From assembly GCF_014195655.1 (NCBI RefSeq), contig NZ_JACICD010000005.1, forward strand, positions 124,001 to 188,000: a stretch of DNA of 64,000 bases. Reading direction: 5' to 3'. The translations under genes and the position numbers were made by a program. Positions 47,499-60,060 of the stretch are shown in pieces (position 1 is the stretch's first letter; the number at the start of each line of letters is the position of its first letter). The DNA is from Ancylobacter tetraedralis (GTDB lineage Bacteria; Pseudomonadota; Alphaproteobacteria; Rhizobiales; Xanthobacteraceae). A model generated the notes under the pieces. That model saw only the letters and a program-made list of their open reading frames with translations, did no database searches and had not been told where the DNA came from.

Positions 47499-48077
47499 AT
47501 GACACCTTCCCGCGACCCCCCTCGTCCGCACCCCTCGGGGCATGACGGCCACCACGACCACGACCATGGCGCCTGCGTCGCCGTCGCGCTGGCGCGGGCG
47601 GAGGCGAGCTGCGGCGAGCGCGGCGCGCGCCTTACCCCGCTGCGGCGCCGCGTGCTGGAGGGCCTTGCCGACAGCCATGTGCCGCTTGGCGCCTATGAAC
47701 TGGTCGAACGGCTCGGCAGCACGGGCGACAAGCCGCCGCCCATGTCGGTCTACCGCGCGCTCGACTTCCTGGTCGCGGAAGGGCTCGCCCATCGCATCGA
47801 GAGCCGCAACGCCTATATCGCCTGTGGAAGCACCCACGGCGCCGATGACGTGATCGTGTTCCTCATCTGCGAGAGTTGCGGGCTGACCTCCGAGGTCGCG
47901 TCGCACGCCATCGGGCGCGACCTGGCCTGGGCTGCGCGCGCCGCCGGCTTCGCGCCGCGCGCCTCGGTGATCGAGATTCCCGGCACCTGCGCGCGCTGCC
48001 GAGCCACGGCGGCGGCGGGGATCGAGCCCCCCGCCGGGCAACAGGCATCGGAACCCGCCCCGGAATCGGCCCGTTGA
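47499..48077 (+). CDS. zur: Fur-family regulator, Zur-like
   Basis: 192-residue Fur-superfamily repressor. The winged-helix part (about 36-105) includes RLTPLRRRVLEGL and PPPMSVYRALDFLVAEGLAHRIESRNAYIAC. Two zinc-structural CxxC pairs are present at C124/C127 and C164/C167. The His-rich N terminus (HPSGHDGHHDHDHG, 11-24) fits a zinc sensor better than an iron sensor. Zur represses zinc uptake when zinc is abundant; a znu operon is 12 kb away. The exact paralogue (Zur versus Irr/Mur) rests on motif style, so symbol confidence is moderate. Confidence 0.85.
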   Translation: MTPSRDPPRPHPSGHDGHHDHDHGACVAVALARAEASCGERGARLTPLRRRVLEGLADSHVPLGAYELVERLGSTGDKPPPMSVYRALDFLVAEGLAHRIESRNAYIACGSTHGADDVIVFLICESCGLTSEVASHAIGRDLAWAARAAGFAPRASVIEIPGTCARCRATAAAGIEPPAGQQASEPAPESAR

Positions 48078-53720: not shown

Positions 53721-54716
53721 TCACAGCACGATGAGCCCGCCCGCGCCGTCTTCCGTGCCGATGGCGAGCGCTCCGCCATCGGCCCGCCAGGCCAGCGCGC
53801 TCACGGGCCCGCCGGCGGGCGCGCGGGCGAGGATTTCCGCCCCGTCCGAGATGCGCGCCAGCAGCACCATCCCGTCCTCGTAGCCGCAGGCAATGACCTC
53901 GTCCTTGGGATGAGCGGCCACCGCCGAGACCCGCACGTCGCGCGGGGCGAGCATGGTCGGCTGCTTGCCCATCGGGCCCTCCTTGGCCATGAACGGCCAC
54001 AGGATGACCTCGGTCGAGCCGGAGGTGGCGAGATAGCGCCCGCCGGGCGTGAATTCCATCGAGCGCACGCGCGAGGGATAGCCCGACATGCGCATATGCG
54101 CGCCGTCCGGCAGCCGCCAGCCATGCAGCGCGGCCTCCTGCATGGTGGTGACGATGAAGCGCGCTTCCGGGTGCCACAGGATGCCGCGATGCGAGCCCTT
54201 CCATTCCAGCACTTCGGGCTTGGCCTGCGCGTTGGGGAACCACAGCGTCGCGCCGCCATAATGGGCGATGGCAAGCCGCGTGCCCTTGGGCGCGAAGGCC
54301 AGTCCGCCGACGGTGGAGGGCAGTTCGAGCGATTTCCGCTCGCCCTTCACCGGCTGGAAATGCGCGCTCTTGCCGACCGAGAAGGCGAAGGCGCCGTCCA
54401 TCGCCACCGCGACATGGTCGATCCAGCGGCCCTTCTGCTCGAACAGCGCCTCGCTCGACCCATCCAGCCGCGTCGCCACCACACGCCCGTCATCGCCGCC
54501 CGTCACCAGACGCTTGCCGTCGCCGGCGAGGGAGAGGATGGCGCCCTTGTGCGCGCCGACGCGCGTCTCCTCATTGCCGGCCAGCACCACGTCGCCCTCG
54601 CCCAGCGCGAAGGCGGCGGTGGCGCCGAGAAAGCGGACACCGACCACGCCGGACCCGAGATCGAGCGGGCGCAGCTTGGAGGTGATCGAGGAGGGCGTGG
54701 AGGACAGGGCGGCCAT
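53721..54716 (-). CDS. WD40-repeat beta-propeller protein
   Basis: 331-residue protein made of repeated four-strand blades; GAHKGAILSLAGDGKRLVTGGDDGRVVATR, STVGGLAFAPKGTRLAIAHYGGATLWFP and VRSMEFTPGGRYLATSGSTEVILW have the WD-like pattern. No signal peptide or enzymatic domain is present, so it is a cytoplasmic scaffold. In Rhizobiales such a gene often neighbours the COG0523 GTPase and znu genes. Partner unknown. Confidence 0.85.
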   Translation of the reverse strand: MAALSSTPSSITSKLRPLDLGSGVVGVRFLGATAAFALGEGDVVLAGNEETRVGAHKGAILSLAGDGKRLVTGGDDGRVVATRLDGSSEALFEQKGRWIDHVAVAMDGAFAFSVGKSAHFQPVKGERKSLELPSTVGGLAFAPKGTRLAIAHYGGATLWFPNAQAKPEVLEWKGSHRGILWHPEARFIVTTMQEAALHGWRLPDGAHMRMSGYPSRVRSMEFTPGGRYLATSGSTEVILWPFMAKEGPMGKQPTMLAPRDVRVSAVAAHPKDEVIACGYEDGMVLLARISDGAEILARAPAGGPVSALAWRADGGALAIGTEDGAGGLIVL

Positions 54717-55785: not shown

Positions 55786-56775
55786 TCACGCCACGCAGGC
55801 GAGGAAGCCCTGCTCCAGCTTCATCGTGCCGAGCTGGCGGCCGATGAACACGATGCGGCTCACCTTCGCCTCGTCGGCGCGCCAGGGGCGCTGGTGATCG
55901 CCGTCGAGGATCATGTGGACGCCCTGGAACACGAAGCGGTCCGGGTCGTCCTTGAAGGCGAGGATTCCCTTCGAGCGCAGGATGTTCGGCCCTTCCGTCT
56001 GGGTCAGTTCCTGGATCCATGGGAAGAACTTGTCGGGGTCGAGCGGCTTGTCGGTGGAGAAGGACACCGACTTCATGTCCTCGTCGTGGAAATGCTTGTG
56101 GCCGCCTTCGAGGAAATCCGGGTCGAGCGCCTGGATGCGGTCGAGGTCGAACGCCCCCTGCCCCAGCACCTTGTCGATGGCGATATCCGACTTGAGGGTG
56201 CGGTGGACGCGCGCGAAGGGGTTGATGGCGCGGATGCGCATCTCGACGTCCTTCAGCTCGGTCTCCGAGACGAGGTCCGTCTTGTTGAGCAGGATGACAT
56301 CGGCGAAGGCGATCTGGTTCTTCGCCTCGGGCGCGTCCTTCAGCCGGTCCTTCAGCCACTTGGCGTCGGCCACGGTGACGACGGCATCGAGCGTCGTCTT
56401 GGCGCCCACCGTCTCGTCGACGAAGAAGGTCTGCGCCACCGGGGCCGGGTCGGCAAGGCCGGTGGTCTCGACGATGATGCCGTCGAAATCGCCCTTGCGG
56501 CGCAGCAGGCCGTCGATGATGCGGATCAGGTCGCCGCGCACGGTGCAGCAGATGCAGCCGTTATTCATCTCGAACACTTCCTCGTCGGCGCCGACGACGA
56601 GGTCGTTATCGATGCCGATCTCGCCGAACTCGTTGACGACGACGGCGAATTTCTTGCCGTGCGGCTCGGAGAGGATTCGGTTGAGCAGCGTGGTCTTGCC
56701 GGCTCCGAGATAGCCGGTCAGCACGGTGACGGGAATCTTGGCGGGCTGCGTCTCGTTCGGCTTGGTCTCGGGCAT
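55786..56775 (-). CDS. COG0523 GTPase (CobW/ZigA-type metallochaperone)
   Basis: 329-residue G3E GTPase. Walker A GYLGAGKT is at 21-28, the metal-binding CICC at 74-77 ([11 protein letters not shown]), NKTD is the base motif, and the C-terminal CobW_C domain contains [23 protein letters not shown] His-rich [12 protein letters not shown] loop is present. This subfamily delivers zinc or other metals to target enzymes, often under Zur control. It follows znuA on the same strand after 144 nt occupied by an interspersed repeat. CobW in the cobalamin sense is less likely, as the cob genes here are elsewhere. Confidence 0.93.
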
Positions 56776-56798
56776 CTGGGTCGCTCCAATCCTTGTCT

Positions 56799-56904
56799 TC
56801 CCTCGCCCCGTCGGGGAAAGGCCGCCCGCGAGGCGGATCGGTGAGGGGAACCAGCGCTGGACGCCAGCCCCCCTCACCCCAACCCTCTCCCCCTCAGCGA
56901 GAGG
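56799..56904 (-). repeat. Interspersed palindromic intergenic repeat, copy 2
   Basis: Read on the minus strand it shows GAGAGGGTTGGGGTGAG, CCCCTCACCGA, a CCGCC/GGCGG hairpin and CCCCGACGGGGCGAGG in the same order as the copy after cobS. Each copy lies downstream of a gene in its own direction (cobS; znuA). No coding capacity. Confidence 0.8.
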
Positions 56905-56919
56905 AAGCGATCGCCGCCC

Positions 56920-57939
56920 TCAGCTCGACAGCGCCGAGGAAAGCTCGCGGACGTTACTCTGTATCATGTCGATGTAGGTGCTCGCCGGGCCTTTGTCATC
57001 GGAGAGCGCATCGGAATAAAGCTCGCCGCCGACGCGCGCGCCCGATTCCTTGGCGATACGCTGGGCCAGCCGCGGATCGGCGATGTTCTCCAGGAACACG
57101 GCGGGAATCTTCTGCGACTTGATCTGCCGGATGATGCGGCCGACATCCTTGGCGGAGGCCTCCGCCTCGGTCGAGACGCCCTGCGGCGCCAGCAGCTTCA
57201 GCCCATAGGCATCGCCGAAATAGCCGAACGCGTCATGCGAGGTGATGATGCGGCGCTGCTTGACGGGAATGCCGGCCATGGCGGTGCGCACCTGCGCGTC
57301 CAGCGCCTTGAGCTTCTCGATATAGGCGGCCGCCTGTGCCTTGTAAGCCTCCGCGCCGGCCGGATCGGCCTTGATCAGCGCGTCGCGGATATTGGCCGCG
57401 TAGATCTCCACATTGGCCACGTTCTGCCAGGCATGCGGGTCGAGCGGGCCGTGGTCGTGGCCCTTGTGCGCGTCGGCGGGAGCGGCTTCGGCATGGTCCT
57501 GCCCGGCCGCGTCATGCCCCTCCTCCTCGTCATCGTCCTGCGGCTCGCTGGCTGTGCGGTAGCGCGGCGTCACGCCCTGCGTGACGGCCACGAGTTCCGC
57601 CTTGGTGCCCGACGCCTTGACCAGACGATCCATCCAGCCCTCCAGCCCGAGCCCGTTCTCGAACACGACGGCGGCCTGCGCCACCTCCTTCGCGGCCTGA
57701 GGGGTAGGCTGGTAGACATGTGTGTCGCCGTTGGGGCCGACCAGCGTGACCACCGAGATGCGGTCGCCGCCGACATTCTTCACGATGTCGCCGAGGATCG
57801 AGAACGTGGCGACAACCGGCAGGGGATGGGACGCGGCATCCTGCGCGAGCGCGGGGGTGGCCAGCGGGAGGCCGGCGGCCAGAGTTGCGCCAAGGCCGGC
57901 CAGAAGGGCGCGGCGCCGGGAGATGCGGACGGAACGCAT
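56920..57939 (-). CDS. znuA: Zinc ABC transporter substrate-binding protein (ZnuA)
   Basis: 339-residue cluster A-I solute-binding protein. The signal sequence carries RISRRRALLAG, a twin-arginine-like start, before a hydrophobic core ending at ALA. Metal ligands are H74, H169, H235 and D310; a histidine rather than glutamate at the third position (SHDAFGYF) indicates zinc over manganese. An acidic His-rich loop (about 136-165) is typical of ZnuA. ATG 57939 has GGAGA nine bases upstream; GTG 57948 is less likely. Third transporter gene of the operon. Confidence 0.94.
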   Translation of the reverse strand: MRSVRISRRRALLAGLGATLAAGLPLATPALAQDAASHPLPVVATFSILGDIVKNVGGDRISVVTLVGPNGDTHVYQPTPQAAKEVAQAAVVFENGLGLEGWMDRLVKASGTKAELVAVTQGVTPRYRTASEPQDDDEEEGHDAAGQDHAEAAPADAHKGHDHGPLDPHAWQNVANVEIYAANIRDALIKADPAGAEAYKAQAAAYIEKLKALDAQVRTAMAGIPVKQRRIITSHDAFGYFGDAYGLKLLAPQGVSTEAEASAKDVGRIIRQIKSQKIPAVFLENIADPRLAQRIAKESGARVGGELYSDALSDDKGPASTYIDMIQSNVRELSSALSS

Positions 57940-57957
57940 GAGCTTCACTCTCCGAGT

Positions 57958-58827
57958 TCAGGCTTCGAGATGACGGCGCGGCGCGAGGCGGGGAAGGAGC
58001 CCGCCCACCGGGCCGAACAGGACCGACAGCGCATAGGCGCCACCGGCCACGAGGATGATGGCGGGCCCGGAGGGCACGCCCCAATGATAGGAAACCAGCA
58101 AGCCGATCACGCCGGAGGCGCAGGCGATCAGCACCGAGCAGCCGACCATCACGGTCAGCTCGCGGGTCCAGAACCGCGCGCTCGCGGCCGGCAGCATCAT
58201 CATGCCGACCGCCAGAAGCGTGCCGAGCGCATGGAAGCCGCCAACCAGATTGAGCACCACCAGCGCGAGGAAGGCGAGATGGGTCGGCGCCCCCGCCCGG
58301 CTGACCGAGCGCAGGAAGCCGGGATCGACGCTTTCCAGCACCAGCGGCCGCCACAGCACGGCGAGCACGACGAGCGTGAAGCTGGAAATGGCGGTGATGA
58401 GCAGCAGCGTCGCGTCGTCCAGCGCCAGCACGGTGCCGAACAGCACGTGCAGCAGGTCGACATTGGAGCCGCGCAGCGAGACGAGGAGCACGCCGAGCGC
58501 CAGCGAGACGAGATAGAAGGCGGCCAGCGCCGCGTCCTCCTTCATCTGCGTGGCCCGCGCCACCGCCCCGGCGCCCAGCGCCACCGCGAAGCCGGCAACC
58601 AGCCCGCCGATGGTCATGGCGAACAGGTTCAGCCCGGCGGCGAGGAAGCCGACCGCCGCACCCGGCAGGATGGCATGCGCCATGGCGTCGCCGGCGAGAC
58701 TCATGCGCCGCAGCATCATCAGCACGCCGACCGGCCCGGCGCCGAGGCCGAGCGCCAGCACGCCGACCAGCGCCCGGCGCATGAAATCGAACTCGGCGAA
58801 GGGGGCGATGAGGAGAGAGTAGATCAT
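57958..58827 (-). CDS. znuB: Zinc ABC transporter permease (ZnuB)
   Basis: 289-residue ABC-3 family permease with about eight membrane spans, e.g. RALVGVLALGLGAGPVGVLM and LAGDAMAHAILPGAAVGF, the latter being the conserved coupling segment. Its ATG overlaps the znuC stop (ATGA). It ends 18 nt before the znuA start. The C-terminal GPVGGLLPRLAPRR is cytoplasmic by positive charge. Confidence 0.94.
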   Translation of the reverse strand: MIYSLLIAPFAEFDFMRRALVGVLALGLGAGPVGVLMMLRRMSLAGDAMAHAILPGAAVGFLAAGLNLFAMTIGGLVAGFAVALGAGAVARATQMKEDAALAAFYLVSLALGVLLVSLRGSNVDLLHVLFGTVLALDDATLLLITAISSFTLVVLAVLWRPLVLESVDPGFLRSVSRAGAPTHLAFLALVVLNLVGGFHALGTLLAVGMMMLPAASARFWTRELTVMVGCSVLIACASGVIGLLVSYHWGVPSGPAIILVAGGAYALSVLFGPVGGLLPRLAPRRHLEA

Positions 58828-59582
58828 GCCGCCCGCTCCGCTACGGGCGAACCGGGCGCGCAGGCCGGTGCCCCATCGTCCCACGCCTCGCACATGCGGC
58901 GGGCCTCGATGAGATTGGCGGGGGTGAGCACCTCGCGGGTCTCCCCCCAGCCCACCGTCTCGCGCGCCAACAGCAGCGTCTGCGGAAAATGATCGCGCAC
59001 CAGTTCCATGTCGTGCAGCACGGCGAGCACGGTGCGCCCCTCCCCGTTCCAGCGCTCGATGAGCGCGATGAGATCGGCCGTGGTGCCGGCATCGAGCGCG
59101 GTGAACGGCTCGTCGAGCAGGATCAGCCGGGCATCCTGCAGCAGCAGCCGGGCGAACAGCGTGCGCTGCATCTGCCCGCCCGAGAGCGTGCCGATCGGCC
59201 GGGCCTCGAAGCCCTCCAGCCCCACCGCGGCGATCGCCGCCTCGACGCGGGCGCGGTCGGCCTTGCCGATGCCGCCAAACAGCCCGGTGCGTCGCCACAG
59301 GCCGGTCGAGACCAGGTCGAACACCTCGATGGGAAAGGTGCGGTCGATCTCCGCCGCCTGCGGCAGATAGGCAACCTCGCGCTCCGGCACCCGGCACTCG
59401 ATCCGGCCGGCAAGCGCGGGGAGAATGCCGACAATGCCCTTGAGCAGGGTCGACTTTCCCGCCCCGTTCGGCCCGCACACGGCGAGCAGCGCACCCTCGG
59501 GCACCACGCCGTCAAGGTGATGCACCGCCGGGTGGCGGTCATAGCCAAGGGTCAGATCGCGGAAGGCCAGCACGTTGCCCAT
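58824..59582 (-). CDS. znuC: Zinc ABC transporter ATP-binding protein (ZnuC)
   Basis: 252-residue ATPase. Walker A GPNGAGKST, the Q-loop in YLPQAAEID, the signature LSGGQMQR, Walker B LILLDEPF and the switch histidine in VLHDMELV are intact. ATG 59582 (MGNVLAFRDLTLGY) has GGGAGG seven bases upstream and is preferred to 59621. Preceded by the His-rich membrane gene after about 46 nt and coupled to znuB. Confidence 0.95.
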   Translation of the reverse strand: MGNVLAFRDLTLGYDRHPAVHHLDGVVPEGALLAVCGPNGAGKSTLLKGIVGILPALAGRIECRVPEREVAYLPQAAEIDRTFPIEVFDLVSTGLWRRTGLFGGIGKADRARVEAAIAAVGLEGFEARPIGTLSGGQMQRTLFARLLLQDARLILLDEPFTALDAGTTADLIALIERWNGEGRTVLAVLHDMELVRDHFPQTLLLARETVGWGETREVLTPANLIEARRMCEAWDDGAPACAPGSPVAERAA

Positions 59583-59628
59583 GGATTTGCCTCCCGCTTT
59601 CGCTGCCTTGCTTTCCATCATCGCCCCC

Positions 59629-59985
59629 TCACGCGCCGCCGGCGGCCAGCACCACCAGCGCGAGCGCCCAGATCAGCGCGGCCAGCGGCAGCGCGATGGC
59701 GAGGCGCTGCATGGCGGAAAGGCGCAGCAGCGAGAAACCCGGCCGCGCCGGCGGATGACGCCGCCCGGGCCCGTGCGAATGGCGATGCGACGGGGAATGC
59801 GCATGCGCCGCTCCCGGGCGATGCGCGGGAACGGGCACGGTGGCGCCCTCGCCGCCATGATCGTGATCGTGGGAATGGTCATGATCGTGATCGCGCCCCT
59901 TGGCGTGGACATGCCCGTCGCCCGGGTCACGCCGCGTGGCGGGATCGAGCAGGGGCGGCGCGGTGGGGGCAGGCGAAGCAGGCAT
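59629..59985 (-). CDS. His-rich single-span membrane protein, first gene of the znu operon
   Basis: 118-residue protein not matched to a named family. Residues 25-77 contain about 18 histidines in HDHDHSHDHDH and HAHSPSHRHSHG clusters, then one hydrophobic span (about 93-115) and a very short tail. GGAG lies 7 nt before ATG 59985. Two Zur-box-like palindromes lie 24-75 nt upstream. It would be the first gene translated from the zinc operon. A zinc buffer or donor to ZnuB/ZnuC at the cytoplasmic face, or a sensor, is my inference. An upstream ATG at 60018 falls inside one palindrome and is rejected. Confidence 0.75.
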   Translation of the reverse strand: MPASPAPTAPPLLDPATRRDPGDGHVHAKGRDHDHDHSHDHDHGGEGATVPVPAHRPGAAHAHSPSHRHSHGPGRRHPPARPGFSLLRLSAMQRLAIALPLAALIWALALVVLAAGGA

Positions 59986-60003
59986 TGGTAAACTCCGTGG
60001 GTC

Positions 60004-60060
60004 GGAGTGATACAACATATCGGACGGCAGCGTCCACCCGTTCACGATACATTATATCGG
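60004..60060 (-). promoter_or_regulatory. Pair of Zur-box-like palindromes upstream of the znu operon
   Basis: GATACAACATATCGG (60009-60023) and GATACATTATATCGG (60046-60060) are nearly identical 15-mers centred on GATA-N5-TATC palindromes, 37 bp apart. The first extends to GGAGTGATACAACATATC, which agrees at 13 of 18 positions with the palindrome GATATGTTATAACATATC that I recall as an alphaproteobacterial Zur box. On the minus strand the second contains TATAAT, so it probably overlaps the promoter. Confidence 0.65.

Follow-up and report, generated by a model that had tools for sequence, protein, structure and literature searches.

A 64,000-nucleotide stretch of the Ancylobacter tetraedralis genome (hereafter the window) carries a run of apparent zinc-uptake genes, the first of which encodes a small histidine-rich protein. 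A reading of the sequence alone had found no place for this protein among the standard Znu components and had suggested that it might serve the transporter as a zinc buffer, donor, or sensor. The locus raises two questions: whether the protein belongs to the importer, and what its histidines might be for.

Gene and operon organization

As proposed, a frame of 118 residues fills the interval at the head of the operon exactly, opening with an ATG at 59985, preceded by a GGAG at 59993-59996 (seven bases 5' of the ATG), and closing with a TGA stop (Table 1). The histidines do cluster in residues 25-77, as had been noticed; however, there are 15 rather than about 18, all of them within this part. 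The single C-terminal membrane span was confirmed as a prediction: AlphaFold2, run on 24 rows, returned one helix at residues 91-116, with mean pLDDT values of 93, 97, and 87 for residues 91-100, 101-110, and 111-118, respectively, and of 52-64 for the blocks covering residues 1-70. The protein matched nothing in Pfam or NCBIfam at E ≤ 1, and a fragment of a CDF or ZIP protein was set aside on these grounds.

Table 1. Features of the microprotein operon, its promoter, and a candidate regulator, in window coordinates.
Feature	Coordinates	Strand	Remarks
Fur-family gene, candidate regulator outside the operon	47499..48077	+	Zur model 99.5 bits, below cut-off of 167
COG0523/CobW-type GTPase	55786..56877	-	Last gene of the run
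Periplasmic metal-binding protein, AztC-like	56920..57948	-	311.6 bits, below cut-off of 350
ABC permease, AztB-like	57958..58827	-	262.6 bits, below cut-off of 280
ABC ATPase, AztA type	58824..59621	-	222.9 bits, above cut-off of 220
His-tailed one-span microprotein, 118 aa	59629..59985	-	First gene of the operon
Conserved core, residues 85-118	59632..59733	-	SLLR.S...RL..........W; helix 91-116
His-rich N-terminal part, residues 25-77	59755..59913	-	15 His; predicted cytosolic, low model confidence
Operator-like palindrome, proximal copy	60009..60021	.	GATACAACATATC
Operator-like palindrome, distal copy	60046..60058	.	GATACATTATATC; 37 bp from the proximal copy

The microprotein gene lies directly upstream of the ATPase gene on the same strand, separated from it by 7 nt. 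The ATPase exceeds the cut-off of the AztA model; in NCBIfam, the permease and the binding protein score highest with the AztB and AztC models, in both cases below the cut-off. The ZnuB and ZnuC models remained far below theirs, reaching 69.5 of 284 bits and 79.8 of 306 bits. Judged by these scores, the transporter is of the Azt type and not a classical ZnuABC, and the earlier assignment of the operon to Znu has to be given up. A classical Znu component was likewise set aside, given the missed ZnuB and ZnuC cut-offs and the lack of the microprotein in all 30 ZnuB-type loci described below. As portrayed in the accessible portions of PMC7463823, PMC7731109, and PMC5387054, the AztABCD system of Paracoccus denitrificans shares with the present operon the AztA match and the AztB and AztC models as best hits; the A. 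tetraedralis operon differs in missing the AztB and AztC cut-offs, in lacking AztD at E ≤ 1e-10, and in carrying the microprotein. Beyond the GTPase, the next gene is on the opposite strand.

The A. tetraedralis genome holds one strong permease of this superfamily, that of the operon, and one borderline match (19.7 bits, or 20.7 with neighbors, against a cut-off of 20.1). Because it is the sole strong permease, the operon probably encodes the main high-affinity zinc ABC importer of the genome.

Past one opposite-strand gene from the GTPase, a 331-residue protein is encoded on the minus strand at 53721-54716. Its relatives include "WD40 repeat" proteins encoded in zinc operons of Skermanella and Gemmobacter (46% over 326 residues with that of Skermanella), and it is also present in 32 of the 34 loci from the host's taxonomic family (host-family loci). 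The Skermanella and Gemmobacter proteins were considered as AztD and rejected, the best blastp E value against three AztD proteins being 0.058.

Promoter palindromes and candidate regulator

The impression of a zinc-responsive promoter gained support. Both palindromes before the gene are of the form GATAYRNNRTATC, for which 0.01 matches were expected in the 64-kb window. Genome-wide (5.03 Mb), there are three copies of the pattern, two at the operon and one elsewhere, and a reversed control pattern gave zero matches. The third copy (L299, C1:1027217) stands directly before a gene for a ZigA GTPase (614.8 bits, cut-off 600). Because the palindrome is common to the operon and to this zinc-chaperone GTPase gene, control by Zur is likely, and by the same context, the palindromes likely represent a putative Zur-type operator. 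The third site and the ZigA gene also make a small zinc-starvation regulon likely. Among the host-family loci, the pattern was found within 120 bases 5' of the start codon in 30 of 34, with two copies in 23, and the commonest dyad before the gene in the class-wide set was GTTAT-N3-ATAAC (21/93). A Zur motif is also described for the Paracoccus AztABCD operon in the accessible portions of PMC7463823, PMC7731109, and PMC5387054.

The candidate regulator in the window has Zur as its only NCBIfam match (E up to 1e-5). Its gene is located about 8 kb past the end of the operon, and the protein contains an HDGHHDHDHG stretch near its N terminus.

Conservation in the host genus and family

A single-sequence search of 61 genomes detected homologs in all 30 genomes of the host genus, A. 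tetraedralis included, and in four of seven from other genera of the host family, with none in 24 genomes of other taxonomic families. In each of the 34 resulting loci, the microprotein gene is followed by aztA, aztB, and aztC, and in 33 of them a COG0523 GTPase gene comes next; in the exception (G033), the contig ends soon past aztC. In 30 of the 34, a pyrophosphatase gene is located upstream in divergent orientation.

Across these loci, the protein spans 51 to 120 residues and contains 2 to 22 histidines. The latter range depends on the start codons, which were assigned by rule for the short ORFs and are not certain (4-22 His with rule-chosen and 2-22 with hand-chosen starts). Six residues of the core (S85, L87, R88, R94, L95, and W106) are invariant in 24 aligned host-family rows. 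For residues 75-118, the dN/dS ratio came to 0.20, and for those of residues 1-74 that could be aligned, to 0.33, as estimated from 12 non-independent pairs of a low-complexity sequence. By these ratios, the frame is under purifying selection, in line with the initial expectation.

A one-helix family in the slot before aztA

At E ≤ 0.01, a profile of the 24 host-family rows matched 124 of the 397 genomes searched in the order, with some matches surely due to chance; aztA and aztB adjoin each of the 30 best matching loci. The same profile matched just 15 of 289 class genomes at E ≤ 0.001, most relatives being too short and too divergent to be recognized by it. In named plasmid loci, short His-poor one-helix ORFs occupy the slot before aztA. 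They carry the label "hypothetical protein" in a Paracoccaceae bacterium, Skermanella, and Comamonas; for Gemmobacter and Thioclava, the gene table, which is incomplete, has no entry for them.

We searched all 23,373 ORFs of at least 25 codons, in six frames and four profile rounds, from 144 loci: 100 AztB loci of the class and phylum samples, 10 named loci, and the 34 host-family loci. The iterated profile matched 128 ORFs at E < 0.01, and 126 of these lie on the same strand immediately before aztA. Slot carriers numbered 57 among the 65 class loci, 29 among the 35 further phylum loci, and 6 among the 10 named loci, and all 34 host-family loci were carriers. The microprotein was therefore found directly before aztA in 86 of the 100 sampled AztB loci, or in 92 with six carriers that were read by eye, are weaker, and stand outside the profile counts (G498, G595, G571, G692, G468, and G745). 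In addition to the 57 class carriers, one locus (G446, L204) has a microprotein-like ORF displaced from the slot, about 1 kb upstream of aztA. Seven of the 100 were without the microprotein (G581, G450, G244, G105, G907, G199, and G819), of which G581 and G450 have aztB without an adjoining aztA, and G581 shows a weak profile match on another contig.

To avoid circularity, a separate profile was built from the 34 host-family proteins alone. Outside the family, every one of its 46 hits at E < 0.1 lay in the slot, as did 57 of 59 at E < 1; the slot accounts for 485 of 16,179 ORFs. The 30 ZnuB-type control loci, which comprise 2252 ORFs, yielded no match at E < 1; an ATPase hit was present in 28 of these loci, and 6 exceeded the ZnuB cut-off. 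With like flanks, 94 of 116 Azt-type loci were carriers at E < 0.01, compared with 0 of 30 ZnuB-type loci. A lack of homologs at other znu loci had been named as grounds for rejecting the initial idea; taken literally, this applies to the classical ZnuB-type loci, while Azt-type loci carry them.

For 36 diverse members, Pfam gave no match at E ≤ 0.01, and no PDB chain matched at E ≤ 1. In NCBIfam, one of the 36 weakly matched YshB (NF033841; E = 0.0041), itself a family of a small membrane protein, likely by chance. The one-helix family appears to be new, without a match in the family libraries searched, and the protein looks like the undescribed, dedicated component that had been suspected. 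Arg94 and Trp106 are invariant across the 36 diverse rows of alignment A3; the A. tetraedralis protein, one of the profile's own training rows, aligned at both positions. Conservation centers on the C-terminal membrane helix and not on the histidines, and a helix with the invariant Arg and Trp recurs before aztA across Alphaproteobacteria and in some other Proteobacteria.

Behind an AztABC-like set on a plasmid of Bradyrhizobium sp. 172 (L109, 6880-8145), a predicted repeat protein begins with a microprotein-like helix. As a natural fusion it is doubtful, its E value with the independent profile being 3.

The class sample derives from 78 AztB matches, of which 65 were fetched; A. tetraedralis, kept in the host-family set, and 12 lower or partial matches were omitted (G601, G708, G522, G679, G466, G545, G530, G549, G648, G518, G652, and G582). 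Of 61 phylum matches, 10 were already in the set, 35 were taken, and 16 same-genus rows were thinned by hand: G071, G147, G178, G206, and G229 of genus g33, in whose loci the gene precedes aztA; G140, G264, G283, and G300 of genus g73, whose fetched members G244 and G105 are without the microprotein; and G750, G765, G780, G795, G805, G815, and G842. Named plasmid loci were hand-picked (16 of 40 records). A Comamonas carrier (L261, E 2e-5) enters the tree, the pair tests, and the like-flank comparison and stands outside the 144-locus count.

Membrane topology and histidine tails

Members outside the host-family loci are short, with a median length of 43 residues; most have 27-60, and 77 of 93 have at most 60. 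Arg and Lys are more frequent on the N-terminal than on the C-terminal side of the helix in 124 of 127 proteins (two ties, one opposite), the summed charges being 203 versus 10, and a median of 3 residues follows the hydrophobic window. Membrane helices orient according to the positive-inside rule, and by this rule, the charge bias predicts an N-in/C-out topology with the histidine tail in the cytosol. Because the charge pattern places the histidine part there, donation of zinc to the periplasmic binding protein is unlikely, while a buffer or sensor, as initially named, or an acceptor could act on the cytosolic side.

Of the 93 members outside the host-family loci, 12 are His-tailed (at least 5 His), and 67 contain a single histidine or none. 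The initial reading appears right about a dedicated companion of the transporter, but histidines are not the hallmark of the family. Because the tail is absent or minimal in most relatives, it is not the general function of the family. On a quick AztB tree, the tails changed eight times, with three changes on well-supported branches; thus, they were gained or lost more than once. A COG0523 GTPase was co-encoded with 5 of 12 His-tailed forms versus 10 of 81 others (Fisher p = 0.022); tree-independent pairs gave no support for this association, which was therefore dropped as evidence.

These counts bear on the idea that the protein is a structural or assembly subunit only, whose helix stabilizes AztB by protecting it from proteolysis or by promoting dimer assembly and whose histidine tails have no role with zinc. 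The scarcity of histidines in most members would suit it, as would the conserved core next to so variable a tail in the host-family loci. However, the repeated tail changes on the tree, the constraint on the alignable tail within the genus, and the recurrence of tails in a zinc operon speak against it, and we consider a purely structural role rather unlikely.

Distribution of AztD

Among the 126 loci of the quick AztB tree, which includes 10 of the 34 host-family loci, 110 have the microprotein only, 7 have AztD only, and 9 have neither; both occur together in no fetched locus. The seven AztD loci, from Paracoccus, Klebsiella, and rhizobia and relatives, form a group of 10 rows (SH-aLRT 90, not starred) together with three loci that carry neither gene, and the 110 microprotein loci are found on either side of the midpoint root. 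Most simply, the microprotein would be of old origin and would have disappeared where AztD occurs, in the part of the tree to which the Paracoccus system belongs. Because the AztD-chaperone loci without it are confined to that one part, the microprotein may have been overlooked. The label "microprotein" changes six times on the tree, so other losses or misses must have occurred besides. The exclusion has no tree-independent significance, and as a single event in one part of the tree, it does not demonstrate mutual replacement.

Such exclusion would be expected of a periplasmic zinc trap or a donor to AztC that carries its histidine tail outside and fills the part that AztD plays in AztABCD. 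As one part of the tree, however, it is not independent evidence, and the charge bias and the few residues left past the hydrophobic window predict the opposite orientation; this role is very improbable.

With AztD of Paracoccus versutus as a query, no match was obtained in the A. tetraedralis genome at E ≤ 1e-10, nor was AztD found at this threshold in 28 of the other 29 host-genus genomes; the operon stretch likewise contained none. In G020 (8% contamination), AztD is present on contig C156 and the microprotein operon on another contig. AztB positions 17, 70, 95, and 137 (numbering of the window permease) differ between microprotein-bearing loci and the AztD clade, for example, from Ala70 to Pro and from Asp137 to Asn. 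They are candidate docking sites and were left out as evidence because they are confounded by ancestry.

Discussion

Several described proteins resemble the microprotein in part. As covered in the accessible portion of PMC10710835, AcrZ, MgtS, MgtU, and MgtR are small membrane proteins (28-49 aa) that modulate a transporter. The A. tetraedralis protein is likewise very short and, as we infer, would act on its transporter; none of the four is described there on a metal ABC importer or with a His-rich tail, and a Pfam scan found no family common to them and the microprotein. LucB of the mycobacterial Mce1 ABC lipid importer is, according to the accessible text of PMC9882608, a small membrane subunit that was similarly overlooked and has a cytoplasm-facing extension predicted to be disordered; unlike the microprotein, it has at least four helices, serves a lipid substrate, and had no earlier link to its transporter. 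The histidine stretches of the UreG, HypB, and COG0523 metallochaperones vary between lineages, as in the microprotein, although these proteins are GTPases, whereas the microprotein has no enzymatic domain (PMC2770081, accessible portion). We found no description of such a protein in the accessible portions of PMC7463823, PMC7731109, PMC5387054, PMC6103462, PMC4176598, PMC12183173, PMC2770081, PMC7029138, PMC10710835, and PMC9882608, nor in the open-access literature searched; an earlier mention may exist elsewhere.

We propose, with a probability of about 0.6, that the protein represents the His-tailed form of one-span microproteins that make up a family without a name and specifically serve zinc importers of the AztABC type, and that its cytosolic tail binds zinc. 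The microprotein is likely a dedicated small subunit of AztB, with the histidine tail acting as a zinc acceptor, buffer, or gauge in some lineages, and it probably constitutes an overlooked part of Azt-type importers. It would insert with the N terminus in and the C terminus out, and its helix would pack against the AztB permease and stabilize or tune the transporter. In A. tetraedralis and several other lineages, the cytosolic tail would then bind zinc leaving AztB. It could serve as a local buffer, as a site of hand-over to the co-encoded COG0523 GTPase, or as a fill-level gauge that slows import.

A more far-reaching version, which we put forward tentatively, makes the microprotein a fourth core component of AztABC, ancestral and lost in the Paracoccus AztABCD clade, with histidine tails that arose independently in several lineages at its cytosolic end, accept zinc directly from the permease, and hand it to a COG0523 GTPase or, once loaded, throttle import.

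Adjacency by itself would be compatible with an assembly factor or a leader peptide as well. That the ORF serves to couple its translation or transcription to that of aztA, and not as a protein, is the least probable reading, because although the ORF lies a few bases before aztA and often abuts its start, the constraint acts at the amino acid level, Arg and Trp are invariant in the diverse rows, the charge bias is consistent, and one copy lies about 1 kb away from aztA.

To our knowledge, the handling of zinc at the cytosolic face of high-affinity ABC importers has yet to be explained. If the proposed dedicated microprotein with a zinc-binding tail is real, a membrane-tethered acceptor at the importer exit would explain it directly. 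As a conserved microprotein absent from the family libraries searched, it also implies that work on these importers outside the AztABCD clade may omit a component. Last, the lineage-variable histidine tails on one small scaffold would provide natural pairs with and without the tail in which its role can be studied.
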